Part shown: positions 12,548 to 61,266 of the stretch, in pieces | Position numbering within the stretch: the stretch's first letter is position 1 | How the letters are laid out: each line of letters opens with the position of its first letter | DNA from: Dicyema japonicum | Taxonomy: Eukaryota > Dicyemida > Rhombozoa > Dicyemidae | Reading direction: 5' to 3' | NCBI GenBank assembly: GCA_011109175.1 | Contig: RDEW01000013.1 | Coordinates: 597,221 to 661,220 of the forward strand | Length of the DNA stretch: 64,000 nucleotides | Translations under genes and position numbers: made by a program | Notes under the pieces: generated by a model | The model's database searches: none | Told to the model about the DNA's origin: nothing | The model's input: the letters and a program-made list of their open reading frames with translations, nothing else

Positions 12548-15500
12548 ATGTCTTCAGCCAACAATAGAATTTCTTGTGCTCTCACAAAATTGAAAATTCA
12601 CGAATTGGTATTTTCTCATTTACCATTTGAGAATGAACCTCAAGACAAAGTGAACATCTTGAGTAACCAACGAAAGTGCCAGGTTTGTTTTGATAGCTTA
12701 GTACAAAACAGCCAACATTCAGAGTACCAATCGATATTCTAATCGACGAAATATCTGTCATTTTGCACAACAAAGTATAAACCGTTACAACTTTAGAATT
12801 GCAAGTTCCACGCTTTGTTGGACAAATTAAAGGCGATGGACCTTCTCGTGAGAAACGACACAAATTTGTAATTTTTGGTTGTAACTCAGATTTATTTATG
12901 ACTTTATTTCTGCCAAGGTGAACGGGATTTACTTTCTCTCGAAGATTGTCGGATTTTTACTCATCGAATTGTATTTCGATATTTTACGTAAAGTGGCAAA
13001 TTCAAGGATAGCAGGCAAAACTCAAAATCTCTTAAAAAGGGAGAAAGTATCGTCGACTGCACGTGTCTTCTTGTCGACATATTTAGTGAGATGGTCGATA
13101 ATTCCGTAATTTGTTGGTTTCACTTCAGGTTGGGCTTTCTCAAATCAGAAAAATTGAGAATCTCCTACAAATTTTTCTGATGCTTTTATTCGCCGGAAAT
13201 ACCAGGTTTGCCAAAAAATGAAAATTTAGAATAACAACTTCTGTTTTGAGATTTCTGACAAGACTCTGCCTCCAGAATGAAGTGAACCTAGTAACCTGTG
13301 GAATCATTAACTTATATGAGGTCCCAAATATTTTATTCCAGGAAAACTGTGAGAAGTATAACTTCACAAAAATTTACGAAACAGCGGATAAGCAGAATGT
13401 GAGTTTATCAGTAATTTTCACTTTAATTTGAGATTTCGTTAGTAAAATTCGTCGAAATACTGGTGGACCGACAGGAGGTTCACTCCACTCGAGTGAAGCT
13501 GAAGCATCACTTAAACTACAGTCGTTATAAGCATACCTTGAATGTGAGTCTGAACCGTAATTTTAGAAACTGAAAAAGACTTTGAACAAAAATTTAAAAA
13601 TGAAAATATCAGAAATCATCAATAAGAGTGAAAAATTCAAAATCAAAAATATCCCAATCGACCATCTACAGAATGAACTCCTAAGCCTTGAGAGGGAGTA
13701 CTCTAATGTTTGATTACTTCTAATTTAAGTCTTTGTGTATTATTGATGAGATTAAAGGCTCCACGAAACTTTGCAATTCTGCGAAGGACCATATTTTTCT
13801 TAACTTTGTAGTTTTTGTAAATTACATAGGCGAAATCGAAACCCAAAAAAATGAGTGAATTGAGTATCTCAGAGTGCCAATCTAAAGAATCTCATGAAGA
13901 CGAGTCACAGAGCGAAGAGGATAACTGTCTGAACATAAATCCAGACATTTTTACCACAGATGACGAAATTTCAAACTTTATAAGAGTTCCATTAAAAAAG
14001 GAACCTTCTAATGCCGTTGTTGAAGGTTCCCAATATTGCAAAATCTGAAACTATCAAAGAAATCATTACAACCTCAAGAAATCAGTACTTCTGAAGATAT
14101 CGACACCACCTTCATAAAATCCAATGCCTCCAAAGAGATCACTTCCAATGGATTGAATCAAACAACAATACGATTGAAGACATAGGCGACAAGATACAAG
14201 AGAATATCAGCGATGTCTCAGTCAAGAATGATAAAACATCCCCACAAGAAAAAAATATGAATGTTAAAGAATGTCTGATTCTGCCAACTCTTAAAATTTT
14301 CCTTCCCCCACCGCCTTTGCTAGGGAAAAGCATCAAAAAGGTGGAAAGCAAGAACAAAATCCTGACCCCTTCCACGGCAATGAAAATAGATTCAGACGTC
14401 TTAACCTCAGATGACGAAATTTCAAACTTTATAACATCCCCGTTAACAAAGGAACCTTCAAATGCAGTTGTTGAAGGTTCCCCCAATATTTCAAAATCTG
14501 AAACTATCAAAAAAATCAATACAACCCCAGGAAATTATACGTCTGAAGATATCGAGACCACCCTCATAAATTCCAATTCCTCCAAAGAGATCACTTCCAA
14601 TGGATTGAATCAAACAAACAATACGATTGAAGAGATAGGCAACGAGATACAAGAGAATATCTGTGATGTCTCAGTCAAGAATGATAAAACATCCCCACAA
14701 GAAAAAAATATGAAAGTTAAAGAATGTCTAATTCTGCCAACTCTTAAAATTTTCCTTCGCCCACCGCCTTTGCTAGGAGAAAGCATCAAAAAGGTGGAAA
14801 GCAATAACAAAATTCCGACCCCGTCCAAGTCAATGAGATTATTCCACTGGACTTCAATTATTTCCGACGAAATCAAAGACACCATCTTCTACAACAACAA
14901 CGAGGATATGCTCTATAAAGTTTAAATTCGATTTTACCTAGAAAATTGATCTAAAGTCGTTCACGGACAGTTTTTACTCCCAAGTCAACAGCATTGAAAA
15001 AGAATCAAAGAGAGATTTCAGCTCAAAGAAAATGTCTCTTCTTTCTGCAGACAGACTTCGTAGCATCGGTTTTGTCTTAAGTAATTTAAAGCGATCGCCA
15101 AACGAACTGTAGGCAACCACCTATTCGGAGACCTTGAAGCAATCAACAAATGTGATTGGAACTACTGCCGAATTGGTGATCTCGAAGTTCTCAGACAAAT
15201 CATTCCGACAGAAGATGAGGTCATATTATAACCTGATCCCTAGAAAGCTCTCTACAAGGACTATATAGGAAAACCAGCGCTCATAGAGACACTTTCTGAT
15301 AAAGACAAATTTTTCATTCGAGTAATTTTCCATTGGTTTACTTAGCTTGTCGAAATTGATGACTTTGAAGCTAAACTGAAGTGTTTGTTCTTTATGGCGT
15401 ACTTTGATGATTCCTACGGGTCTCTACTAAAGGTACCATAGTAAAATCATCTCAAGGAAACTGAAATGATGAAAAACGTTCTAAATAGTATAATCAGGTC

Positions 15501-17112: not shown

Positions 17113-17380
17113 TTTGAGTCGGGTGGCATAGTGGTTAGGTGTCGGGCTAAAGTGGCTTAGTCACGAGTTAGATTCTCACTGCTGTGCACCTGGTGGAAGG
17201 TTCCACGCATCTACGATGCGAAAAGGGCTTGAAGAGTGACGCCGTCATCAGTGGAGATTCACTGCGGAACTGGATAGTCAAAAGGACATACACACAAGAA
17301 AAAGAAAAAAACAAAGAAGAGAAGATCATTCCTTGGTTCTCCCTCTACGATTAGTTATAATAACTTTCTTTACTTATTAT
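17113..17380 (+). mobile_element. tRNA-derived SINE
   Basis: A Pol III-like A box (GTGGCATAGTGGTTAGG, 17,123–17,139) is followed about 40 bp later by a B-box-like GAGTTAGATTCTC (17,165–17,177). A body follows containing GACGCCGTCATCAGTGGA, GCGGAACTGGATAGTC and ACACACAAGAAAAAG. It ends in ACGATTAGTTATAATAACTTT and an A/T tail. The body and tail recur at 50,570–50,700 without the tRNA head. The neighbouring LINE (17,465) may share the tail module. Confidence 0.65.
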
Positions 17381-50330: not shown

Positions 50331-50569
50331 ACTCTCTTCAATTGGTCTTCTGATGATCCAACCGTTTTATTATTATTATTATTTAAGCCAAATAAACACC
50401 GTCTTAACCAATAACTAATATTCAGGTGATCCCGGCATCCAACCGTTTTTAGTTTGCCATAATCACGACGGTTAGAAATATGATTTATTTAAATCATTTT
50501 ATTCAATCATTTAATTATTTCAATATTTAAATCAATATTAAATTAGTTTATTGGTGAAATTCTTTCTGA
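50331..50569. other. LINE tails and simple repeats
   Basis: TTATTATTATTATTATT at 50,365 precedes AACACCGTCTTAACCAATAA and GGTGATCCCGGC, an antisense LINE-type tail. A similar tail is at 50,255–50,330 (CAACCCCAAGACCACC, GGTGATCCCAGC). Confidence 0.45.
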
Positions 50570-50775
50570 CGAGTGAGCCGTCATCAGTGGACTCTCACTG
50601 CGGAACTGGATTGTATAGAAAGGACACTCACACAAGAAAAAGAAAAAGAAGTGAAGATCATTCCTTGTTCTACGATTAGTTAAAATTAACTGTTCTTTAC
50701 TTAAATAAAGTGTGTGTCCTGCCTATGCGGAGCTAATACCACGGCTCCGTGAAAAAGGCTGTTATTATTATACAA
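50570..50775 (+). mobile_element. SINE 3' part plus LINE-like tail
   Basis: GAGCCGTCATCAGTGGACTC, GCGGAACTGGATTG, ACACTCACACAAGAAAAAG and CTACGATTAGTTAAAATTAA match the SINE at 17,113–17,380 from its middle onward. The following CCTATGCGGAGCTAATACCA and TGTTATTATTAT resemble the LINE tail at 9,660–9,715. Confidence 0.6.
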
Positions 50776-50914
50776 TTCTTGTGTCCATGGGATAGGGGAG
50801 TTTGCGACTTTTTTTCCAACACTTTCAAGTGAGCAGGACTCCAAATAGATTAATCCAGGACTCCAAAAACTAACCGCATGAAAAGGACTATACCATTTCA
50901 GGTTTAAAGTGGGT

Positions 50915-51080
50915 CTTACCAAAAGCAAAGTGGTTCTTACCAAAAGCAAAGTGGTACTTACCAAAAGCAAAGTGGTACTTACCAAAAGCAAAGTGGTACT
51001 TACCAAAAGCAAAGTGGAACTTACCAAAAGCAAAGTGGAACTTACCAAAAGCAAAGTGGAACTTACCAAAAGCAAAGTGG
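50915..51080 (+). repeat. Left 21 bp tandem array (8 units)
   Basis: Units CTTACCAAAAGCAAAGTGG plus a variable dinucleotide start at 50,915 and every 21 bp to 51,062. From outside inward the dinucleotides are GT, TT, TA, TA, TA, AA, AA, AA, AA. The open frames in and across it are artefacts of the 21 bp period. Confidence 0.95.
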
Positions 51081-51092
51081 AACAAAAATTAT

Positions 51093-52145
51093 TTAATAAA
51101 CCATGTCATCATTATTTAACACCGATGGGGCCAACCTCTGAATTCTAGCAATTACGGTGTTGCATAAAGATGGAGTGATTATACATAATGAATTAATCAT
51201 ACTTTCTTCTAACTTTTGAAGTCGAAACTCCGTAGTTGACAAAGCTTCTTGTCTCACACCATTCAAAATATTTTTCATATCTGTAGCAATGTGTCTTTTT
51301 ACATCAGCTTTGAAAACTGACCAAATATTCTCAATTGGGTTGAGCATAGGGCTATAGGGACCCAATCTTAAAATTTTATTTCCGATGAATTCATTATCTC
51401 TGACAATTTCTTCAATTCCTGAATGGCATGGAGCATTGTCTACTACTAGCACTACTGGAAAATTGTAAACTTCCCTGGCTTTTCGTAGACAAATTCTCAC
51501 CCATTCATGGGCGGATTCTTTATTAAAGGATCCACGTTTGAATTCATAATGCAACAATCCAAGGGACCCGATGCAACCAATGAAATGTACATTGGCACCT
51601 CGCGAACTTGTTGCAACGACATTAGCCCTTGTTCCTTTTTTTGATCGACCCTTTTTACGGGATATGTGCATGTTTATATTTGTTTCATCCATAAATAATA
51701 TTGGAATTTCCTCCGATTGATATTCCAATAATGAAGTTATAAATTTTTTTCTTTTTTCTTTATTTAATTCACTATTGCCTTTCTCTGGTTCATACCTGAT
51801 ATCTTTCAAAGAATAACAGGCACCGTCCAAGTGGACTCGAATGGTTTCTTTTGAAACATTTAAGCTGAAATTAGAATTTAAAAGAATTCTCAAGGTCTCA
51901 AGAGTAATCCTAGGGTTAATTTCGAGCTGTTCAACACAATAATCTTTATGTTTATCAAGAAATTTTTTTGCTTTTGATCCCCCTCGCTGATCAGGTTTGT
52001 TTTTGTTTTTCAACCAACGATAAGTAGTAGTTTTCGGAACATCGAGAGATTTTGCAAGTTCCCTCCAGTCACCATCTCCCTCATAAGCCCCGATAATAAG
52101 ATTTTTCTTAATTTCAGCTTCAGACTTTTTTATTTGAGCAGGCAT
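51093..52145 (-). CDS. IS630/Tc1-family DDE transposase, intact
   Basis: The transposase cuts and pastes the surrounding element into TA sites. I place the start at MPAQIKKSEAE (52,145), because the upstream ATG at 52,178 adds only a hydrophobic 11-residue leader next to the repeat array. An N-terminal helix-turn-helix (DWRELAKSLDVPKTTTYRWL) is followed by a second DNA-binding segment (NPRITLETLRILL…VSKETIRVHL). The catalytic core has Asp in ILFMDETNINMH, Asp in VVLVVDNAPCHSG and Glu in YSPMLNPIENIWSVFK. Thirty-five residues separate the second Asp from the Glu, giving a DD35E spacing. The C-terminal ~60 residues are helical. At 350 residues it is normal family length with no stop, frameshift or intron. 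The lack of 22 nt introns sets it apart from host genes. Confidence 0.92.
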   Translation of the reverse strand: MPAQIKKSEAEIKKNLIIGAYEGDGDWRELAKSLDVPKTTTYRWLKNKNKPDQRGGSKAKKFLDKHKDYCVEQLEINPRITLETLRILLNSNFSLNVSKETIRVHLDGACYSLKDIRYEPEKGNSELNKEKRKKFITSLLEYQSEEIPILFMDETNINMHISRKKGRSKKGTRANVVATSSRGANVHFIGCIGSLGLLHYEFKRGSFNKESAHEWVRICLRKAREVYNFPVVLVVDNAPCHSGIEEIVRDNEFIGNKILRLGPYSPMLNPIENIWSVFKADVKRHIATDMKNILNGVRQEALSTTEFRLQKLEESMINSLCIITPSLCNTVIARIQRLAPSVLNNDDMVY

Positions 52146-52199
52146 ATGAATAAAAAAATGAAATATTTGCGCAGACATGCAAATATATAGGTTTTTGCT

Positions 52200-52491
52200 T
52201 AGTCACTTTTGCAATTGATCTCGACACTTTTGCATGTTGCTTTGTCACTTTTGCCAATGATCTCGACACTTTTGCATGTTGCTTTGTCACTTTTGCAATG
52301 ATCTCGTCACTTTTGCATGTTGCTTTGTCACTTTTGCAAATGATCTCGTCACTTTTGCAATTGATCTCGACACTTTTGCATGTTGCTTTGTCACTTTTGC
52401 AATTGATCTCGACACTTTTGCATGTTGCTTTGTCACTTTTGCGAATGATCTCGACACTTTTGCAATTGATCTCGACACTTTTGCAATTGAA
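52200..52491 (+). repeat. Internal tandem array of CACTTTTGCA units
   Basis: Fourteen units of 19–22 bp each carry CACTTTTG. Two kinds tend to alternate, one ending CAATTGATCTCGA and one CATGTTGCTTTGT, giving a ~41 bp higher-order period. The array lies just upstream of the transposase start and inside the right terminal array, so it occupies the promoter/5' leader position. Confidence 0.9.
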
Positions 52492-52529
52492 ATTAATCTT
52501 CATCCTATAACAAAAAAATAATTTTTGTT

Positions 52530-52756
52530 CCACTTTGATTTTGGTAAGTTCCACTTTGCTTTTGGTAAGTTCCACTTTGCTTTTGGTAAGTACCACTTTG
52601 CTTTTGGTAAGTACCACTTTGCTTTTGGTAAGTACCACTTTGCTTTTGGTAAGTCCCACTTTGCTTTTGGTAAGACCCACTTTGCTTTTGGTAAGACCCA
52701 CTTTGCTTTTGGTAAGACCCACTTTGCTTTTGGTAAGACCCACTGCTTTTGGTAAG
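52530..52756 (-). repeat. Right 21 bp tandem array (11 units)
   Basis: Inverted relative to the left array. Reading inward from the right end the dinucleotides are GT (five), GA, TA (three), AA (three). The outermost unit is short by two bases (CCACTGCTTTTGG). The innermost has GATTTTGG in place of GCTTTTGG. Confidence 0.95.
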
Positions 52757-52789
52757 ACCCACTTTAAACCTGAAATGGTATAGTATGGA

Positions 52790-59822: not shown

Positions 59823-61266
59823 TTAATAATCGGTTATACCCAGCAGACTACTAAACACTTTGGCGGCTGTTGACTTTGAACACTTTGTAGGACATATTGT
59901 AGAAAATGTGGTTGACTGAGATGGTTCTTTCTTGCATTTCGTTAGTACAATCTCTTCAATTCTACTATGTCCCTCGCATATAAAAGATTGTGAGGTGTCT
60001 GATAAAAGTGGAACGCATGGATCACTGTCCTTATGTGTGGATACAGTATTTCTACAAATAAACACTCAACAACTCCTGGTAGGTGACTGTCTTAACGGAG
60101 ACATCCATTTGATTAGCCTCACACCTATCACAGTCGCGTCTCATCATCTCAATGCCTTGACTGACTAAACTGTTTGCTAATAGTCTGAAGGAATCTCTAC
60201 TGGCATATTCTGCATATTTGATCATTTTCTGAAAGGGTTCTCACGTAAATATGGAATATACTTGAATATTTATTAACGAATAGCTCTTTTACTTCATTAG
60301 TACTAGCCATGACAAACGATAATATCTGACATTTGTTCATGTTCTCCTTTAGTCTATCCGAACTATAATTAATTGCTGTGTCCTTTATTGTACTATTATT
60401 CTGGGGTTATCCATAAATAGTACTTTCAGTTCATCAATACTCTGCTGTAAACTAAGCCTCTTGGGGGAAAAATGGTTCAGTTCGTTAATACTCTGCTGTA
60501 AACTAAGCCTCTTGGGGGAAGAATGGTTCAGTTCATCAATACTCTGATGTAAACTAAGCCTCTTGGGGGAAGAATGGTTCGACAAATTGCTAACATGTAT
60601 AATATTGTAACCTTAATGGTCGTTTGGCGTCGTGGAATTGGAGACAGTCAATAAACTGGTTATACTCACACTCTGTGAAGGATGGTAAAAATTCGTCTTG
60701 CAGAAATGAAGTAGTCTTAATGTTCTCATCTGGTAATGATATAAGTTTGGGGTCAACACTGTATTTGTTGGTCATCATTAAAGCATTCTACAATATAAGT
60801 GAAGTGTACATATTGTGTCAAGTCTGGCATTTCATACTCATTCAATTCTAAGCCTTTAAGATGAGATTTGCAGCTCTTTTATCTCGATGAGTTGATTTAT
60901 TACTGTTGATCATAGTGTGAATCAGTTTCATCAAGTCATCTTTACTAAGCAATCTAATTTACTTATCAAAAAATCCATTTGTTTGCAATAAATTCTGAAC
61001 ATTCCAATGAATAATCTGGCTGATAAATATATGGATAGTCGGACTTTATTTCTCTCCGTTTCAATCTTAACAAGTCCACTCACGCAAGAATTCAGTTCAA
61101 TACTAAATTTATGGTCACATTGATACCAATTTTTTACGATATTTGCTTCGCAATACTCCTTTCGAGTAATTCTTGTACTTCTCGAGGCAGCCAACCTTGA
61201 ATTATCATTGCTATATTACCAGATTATTCCAAATTTTTCCTTCTTTTTGATCATAAAATTTTCCAT
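59823..61266 (-). CDS. RAD21/SCC1-like kleisin (cohesin subunit)
   Basis: Kleisins close the cohesin ring by bridging SMC3 (N-terminus) and SMC1 (C-terminal winged helix). The start at 61,266 gives MENFMIKKKEKFGIIWLAAS, aligning with the family opening FVLSKRGPLAKIWLAAHW. This reading needs removal of a 24 nt intron (61,196–61,219). The N-terminal domain continues EYCEANIVKN, KIETERNK and ARLFIGMFRIYCKQMDFLIS (family LRTSGHLLLGVVRIY…YLL), with further 24–25 nt introns. NKYSVDPKLISLPDENIKTT and FTECEYNQFID follow, then a 17-residue triplication. The C-terminal winged-helix segment is KCSKSTAAKVFSSLL (family RKQAAAKFYSFLVLK) near the stop at 59,823. At ~400 residues it is shorter than human RAD21 (631). 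REC8 cannot be excluded. The middle splice path is partly unresolved. Confidence 0.7.
60428..60580 (-). repeat. Three 51 bp repeats coding a 17-residue unit
   Basis: The minus strand repeats NHSSPKRLSLQQSIDEL three times with few changes (H/Q, D/N, S/F). DNA units begin CAGTTCATCAATACTCTG and recur every 51 bp, keeping frame within the RAD21-like gene. Confidence 0.9.

Follow-up and report, generated by a model that had tools for sequence, protein, structure and literature searches.

Tandem 21-bp arrays at the ends of a recently active IS630/Tc1-group transposon are candidate multivalent transposase-binding sites

Introduction

Sleeping Beauty and the Bari-like transposons of the Tc1 group resemble the element described here in encoding a DDE transposase, inserting at TA and carrying secondary sites in their longer TIRs. 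They bear two or three sites per end, set a long distance apart, and are not known to have a 21-bp array. Part of this comparison is also covered in the available sections of a study of Galileo, a P-superfamily transposon of Drosophila with tandem repeats in its long TIRs, where extra THAP-domain binding sites within the TIRs were tested and a higher-order synaptic complex was suggested (PMC3688188). The bacterial ISY100, which shares with our element the IS630/Tc1/mariner transposase group and the TA duplication, is described in the accessible part of its source as having an N-terminal domain whose two helix-turn-helix motifs cover the 24-bp end and as yielding mini-transposons that, with 30 bp from each end, match the full element in function (PMC2170065). 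It has one site per end, whereas in our element sites of about this size follow one another every two helical turns.

Traveler elements (Tc1/mariner) likewise have a DD35E triad and a TA duplication but, in the portion of the source at hand, TIRs of 13-68 bp that mostly end in CAGTC or CAGCC, as against a tip TACCATTTC and a TIR of about 190 nt here; the word "tandem" is absent from the main text available for that source (PMC7093834). Tetris, a foldback element, differs in its repeats of about 220 bp, in being non-autonomous and in that its transposase was not found, as far as the available excerpt goes (PMC4079207). The open-licence PMC texts listed by the search, many accessible in part, describe no period-21 end arrays in IS630/Tc1 elements and give described relatives one or a few sites, in agreement with the original prediction that ends built as arrays are unlike those of described Tc1/mariner elements. 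Here we analyse such an element in a window of 64,000 nucleotides, the whole stretch of DNA under study (G000:C34:597221-661220), from a eukaryotic assembly of 64.67 Mb in 191 contigs.

Results

The element spans window positions 50891 (TACC...) to 52780 (...GGTA) with a TA on both sides, the unstranded target-site duplications lying at 50889..50890 (flank ACTA) and 52781..52782 (flank TAGT). Its left tip, TACCATTTCAGGTTTAAAGTGG (50891..50912, plus strand), forms an inverted pair with the right tip (52759..52780, minus strand), the ends as a whole giving a 41-nt inverted match that is 100% complementary and includes 4 nt of flank per side. Next to each tip stands an array of the same unit, CTTACCAAAAGCAAAGTGG plus 2 nt. 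On the left (50915..51080, plus strand), TRF (50906-51080, period 21, 8.3 copies) and unit-by-unit reading reveal eight units of 19 nt + 2 nt, the 19-mer perfect in all eight and each preceded by a dinucleotide, in order GT TT TA TA TA AA AA AA; on the right (52530..52756, minus strand), the same approaches (TRF 52530-52765, period 21, 11.3 copies) reveal ten full units, one with a single change, and a shortened eleventh with a 2-nt deletion. The TA-flanked architecture with mirror-image repeat ends and the counts of 8 and 11 units thus stand as first proposed, the latter with the eleventh unit incomplete. The tip (TACC-N11-AAAGTGG) and the unit (TACC-N6-AAAGTGG) have both halves in common, as if the tip were a stretched array unit.

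Between the arrays, on the minus strand at 51093..52178, lies the transposase ORF, assigned by its translation and profile matches to the IS630/Tc1 group. It counts 361 codons from its first ATG and 350 from its second (window 52145), so that the single open frame of 350 codons with a complete DD35E triad in the original prediction holds for the second start; the triad is D164, D247 and E283, with 35 residues separating the last two. The protein passes the cut-offs of both PF13358 (Pfam DDE_3; 75.7 bits vs. 28.6) and NF033545 (NCBIfam IS630; 113.5 bits vs. 100), which together with the TA duplication bears out the predicted IS630/Tc1 identity. Pfam HTH matches in the N-terminal domain are all sub-threshold, and a number of relatives carry a precomputed HTH_32 match. 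The element (family A) groups with P0001 (support 99/95) in a tree of 54 proteins, and family B, introduced below, with P0038 (97/86) on a long branch; families C and D fall outside on long branches, with a program warning on how these are joined.

Families A and C have named relatives in widely scattered hosts, namely microsporidia (Cucumispora, Dictyocoela), a myxozoan (Henneguya), oomycetes, beetles, Hydra and a nematode (Plectus), a distribution that may point to horizontal spread; Harmonia and Aphanomyces are among the eukaryotic relatives. The search pattern matched 103 stretches in viral contigs and 54 in prokaryote contigs, none of them a relative by tblastn. Transposase-like matches at G000:C22:26231-26608 and G000:C87:642644-642958 are embedded in open frames 4648 and 3613 codons long and may be captured or domesticated domains.

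The genome holds at least five near-full-length open transposase frames. Four (window, C34:833665, C87 and C68), at separate genomic places, are identical over 1083 nt; the fifth departs from these by a single substitution and a small indel close to its start, meets a stop within 18 codons when read from the first ATG, and looks dead. With up to two mismatches the 22-nt tip occurs at 81 genome sites (63 exact, 10 with one mismatch, 8 with two), and its letters reversed, searched in the same way, at none, ruling out chance as the source of the matches. Segmental duplication is likewise ruled out for the three ORF-identical copies with two tips, as their flanks differ; the fourth (L063, C68) is truncated within its 5'-side array.

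Bacterial IS630 prefers CTAG as its target. The same TA within CTAG marks the present family: WCTA precedes 55 of 58 tips in the sequence segments retrieved from the genome, as against 10.7% of TA dinucleotides in the window (binomial 8.5e-50), and among 19 two-tip elements a TA lies on both sides in 18 and CTA on the left with TAG on the right in 17, L069 and L070 being the exceptions. Insertion is at the TA inside WCTAGW, with duplication of TA. An empty site is provided by the sister copy at C34:833665, which is inserted in a high-copy repeat: the 92-nt sequence made by joining its two flanks at a single TA matches at least 40 places at 98-100%, six of them at 100% over 91 nt, among the 40 of 1457 first-look candidates that were scored, so that at this locus CTAG is the empty site and TA the duplicated dinucleotide. 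In alignments of the retrieved loci, CTAG is present in one more copy of that repeat, and other copies have diverged at the site; for the window copy, the retrieved loci hold only diverged flank paralogues (79-86%) with no CTAG at that position. The suggested genome search thus found its second copies, in the form of the 81 tip sites and four identical ORFs, and an empty site for the sister copy alone, and with the ORF identity these bear out the prediction of an intact element and show that it moved recently. The element is best described as a cut-and-paste transposon of the IS630/Tc1 group, autonomous and active in the recent past.

A very abundant genome repeat (1457 first-look candidates) has two copies in the window, at 50567-50755 and 17134-17376, and further copies of it are the landing sites of elements L062 and L068.

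Clean TA duplications in 18 of 19 two-tip elements, together with an encoded transposase, also speak against the reading that the long inverted arrays serve as hairpins or recombination substrates rather than as protein sites. The element does have the long inverted ends of tandem repeats of foldback elements, a term that describes architecture only and implies no transposase group; its arms run for 189 nt at 98% complementarity (a TIR of about 190 nt), and tandem-repeat TIRs are possible in foldback elements according to the available part of PMC4079207. A hairpin, however, would require complementarity alone, and neither a conserved core with a free spacer nor a common period, both of which are described below, and we consider this reading very improbable.

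Seven of the 19 two-tip elements (L066, L068, L074, L075, L076, L078 and L079) are non-autonomous. Their interiors, 95-99.7% alike among themselves, have no match to the transposon ORF or to the inner array, so that tips and outer arrays are the sole parts they have in common with the autonomous transposon; their 14 ends carry 3-9 contiguous units, with a mean of 6.8. They constitute a young family with a retroelement-like stretch between transposon arrays, frames in one interior resembling what we take to be a LINE-type retroelement. Going by these shared parts, the ends seem to suffice for mobility, and the common ends and common CTAG target lead us to infer that the autonomous transposase moves the non-autonomous elements; these could also carry their arrays by descent alone.

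The inner array (52202..52490, unstranded, detected by TRF) has the same period of 21 with a different unit containing the core GCAAAAGTG. It consists of alternating 21-bp units, separates the 5' side of the transposase ORF from the right array, and is present with variable unit number in autonomous copies. Its absence from all seven non-autonomous elements indicates that it is probably dispensable in cis for mobility. The same absence, with its position directly 5' of the ORF in autonomous copies, fits a reading in which the arrays, chiefly this one, act in transcription control as a promoter or in autoregulation and the tip alone provides mobility; the outer arrays, by contrast, stand at both ends and also in elements with no gene to control, and for the arrays as a whole we regard transcription control as improbable. 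It is still a good reading for the inner array, a possible autoregulatory site.

Arrays turn over faster than the transposase gene, as they differ among ORF-identical copies: the 3'-side array has 8 units in the window, 6 at C34:833665, 9 at C87 and 8 at C68, and the 5'-side array, in the first three, 11, 9 and 6, the counts of 11 and 9 each including a shortened unit. Differences in length fall largely inside runs of one spacer type, and the spacers follow one order at both ends, with GT next to the tip, then TA, and AA innermost; across the 35 arrays with at least four contiguous units, the mean relative-position difference between AA and GT is 0.51, matched in 0 of 10000 shuffles. This polarity at both ends fits local duplication of neighbouring units. 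The 19-nt core varies little: across 324 in-register units, drawn from 33 segments, diversity at the two spacer positions is 0.65 and 0.51 and at the 19 core positions at most 0.143, the unit search having allowed up to four core mismatches and any spacer letters, which gives some bias toward a conserved core; the observed core variation is well under that bound. The core is identical in 52 of the 54 in-register units of the four ORF-identical copies, the remaining two having one change in common, alongside five spacer types. Purifying selection would account for this conservation of the core; recent homogenisation that spared the spacer would be an alternative.

The number of units varies. 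Where their ends are complete, the ORF-identical copies carry 6 to 11 units and some other copies 3, and 12 of 58 tips have one contiguous unit or none, the two tips with zero including the window's right end, where the shortened unit stopped the count; no minimum number is visible across the ends of the copies. Such turnover raises the possibility that the arrays are a by-product minisatellite, a subterminal site expanded by slippage or post-excision gap repair whose copy number brings no benefit. Differences among ORF-identical copies, length changes largely within same-spacer runs and the few units in decayed copies all fit such an origin. Avoidance of the core by the variation does not, nor does a period of 21 or 20+21 with unrelated units in four families when 29 background arrays show other periods, and in sum we hold a by-product origin to be unlikely, if the most serious of the competing explanations.

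A census of six further loci with more distant transposases, small, confined to one genome and not scored blind, shows clear arrays at four, a weak one at one and none at one. Three divergent families of the IS630/Tc1 group thereby also bear end arrays, their units unrelated in sequence and their period 21 or 20+21. In family B (L027; transposase 33% identical, DD33E) the period is 41, made up of 20- and 21-bp halves; its tips, TACCATTT, stand at CTA flanks (L027 positions 545 and 3014), and a gap of some 580 bp divides its left array in two. Family C (L081 and L084; DD34E) has period 21 with 9.4 and 6.5 units, respectively, at one end and about 2 and 3.3 at the other, and its tip CACTC follows TA at both ends of L084 and one end of L081. 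Family D (L082), with an incomplete ORF and HTH_SB and Tc3 matches below cut-off, has period 21, 4.9 units at one end and a single unit at the other, and the tip CAGGG after TA at both. The repeat of L085 is weak and irregular (21-22 bp) and we do not count it as support; L083, a Tc1-like control with 159-nt TIRs, has no such array in its TIRs and carries 15-17 bp repeats directly outside them. Against NF033545 (cut-off 100), C passes (123.5) and B (90), D (74.7) and L083 (97.6) fall below, so that the array trait does not track the IS630 profile score, A and C passing and B, D and the array-less L083 failing.

Outside these transposon families, none of 29 TRF arrays has period 21 in 212 kb, a non-random sample comprising sequence around transposon matches and the window, with L081-L085 left out and with 4 of 33 unassigned TRF rows reassigned by eye to A (2) and D (2). 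Within family A, 42 of 53 TRF-called arrays have period 21, the rest ranging from 41 to 103, and copies show some 20-bp and 37-bp steps. A coding origin of the 21-bp period as seven codons is ruled out by these 20- and 37-bp steps and by the 41 bp of family B. The predicted placement of every repeat on the same DNA face accordingly stands in part: the prevalent period of 21 agrees with it, and the 41-bp period of B and the 20-bp steps of A weaken strict phasing, leaving the helical phase of the arrays approximate.

The window contains further repeats at 13930-14836, where a 453-bp tandem duplication (two copies, 89% match) overlaps an open frame, and at 60425-60580, where a 51-bp unit, a multiple of three, is repeated 3.1 times and is possibly coding. 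An exon-like frame at 55631-56629 matches inositol polyphosphate 5-phosphatase with 28-46% identity among the 120 of 930 relatives listed, which points to a fast-evolving or poorly sampled eukaryotic host.

Discussion

In light of these observations, the best explanation of the outer arrays is, in our judgement and with some confidence, that they are multivalent, roughly in-phase transposase-binding arrays on an autonomous IS630/Tc1 transposon. Each end would consist of the 22-nt tip followed by tandem 19-nt transposase sites two helical turns apart, with the N-terminal domain, probably comprising two helix-turn-helix parts, binding both tip and units. An array would thereby load several protomers along roughly one DNA face in close head-to-tail packing, and such loading would raise the occupancy and specificity of the ends and ease their pairing in synapsis. 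Cleavage would take place at the tip only and leave the array units uncut. Slippage or unequal exchange between identical neighbouring units would drive array growth and shrinkage, and purifying selection would maintain core and spacing.

Three findings lend indirect support to multivalent binding: conservation of the 19-nt core beside a variable spacer, retention of both arrays in the non-autonomous elements, and a period of about 21 bp that three other families build from unrelated units, a similar design from different motifs in distant families that suggests a crowded docking platform for the transposase. Against it count the activity of ISY100, a member of the same group, with just 30 bp at each end in the part of its description available (PMC2170065), the unfixed unit number, down to the single-unit end in family D, and the departure of family B and several A arrays from strict phase. 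More tentatively still, and with rather less confidence than we place in multivalent binding at the present element, divergent IS630/Tc1-like lineages may keep in-phase arrays of about 21 bp as the sequence changes, on which a filament-like or multi-protomer assembly could form and whose length could act as a fast dial of mobility.

Should the arrays be multivalent platforms, they would supply a natural gradation of end strength among transposons that are otherwise identical, and with it a direct route to why extra binding sites exist and how their number sets mobility. One period with unrelated units would suggest that protein geometry, not sequence, is what is conserved.

The concept of an array as a binding platform is not new, being already known from Galileo, with which our element shares tandem repeats in long TIRs (PMC3688188, available sections). 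Those sections mention neither a 21-bp period nor recurrence in several families. Galileo has a P-type transposase with a THAP domain whereas the element described here belongs to the IS630/Tc1 group, and to the extent that the source permits the comparison, what is distinct about the present arrays is this transposase group, their short, strict period and their recurrence with unrelated units.
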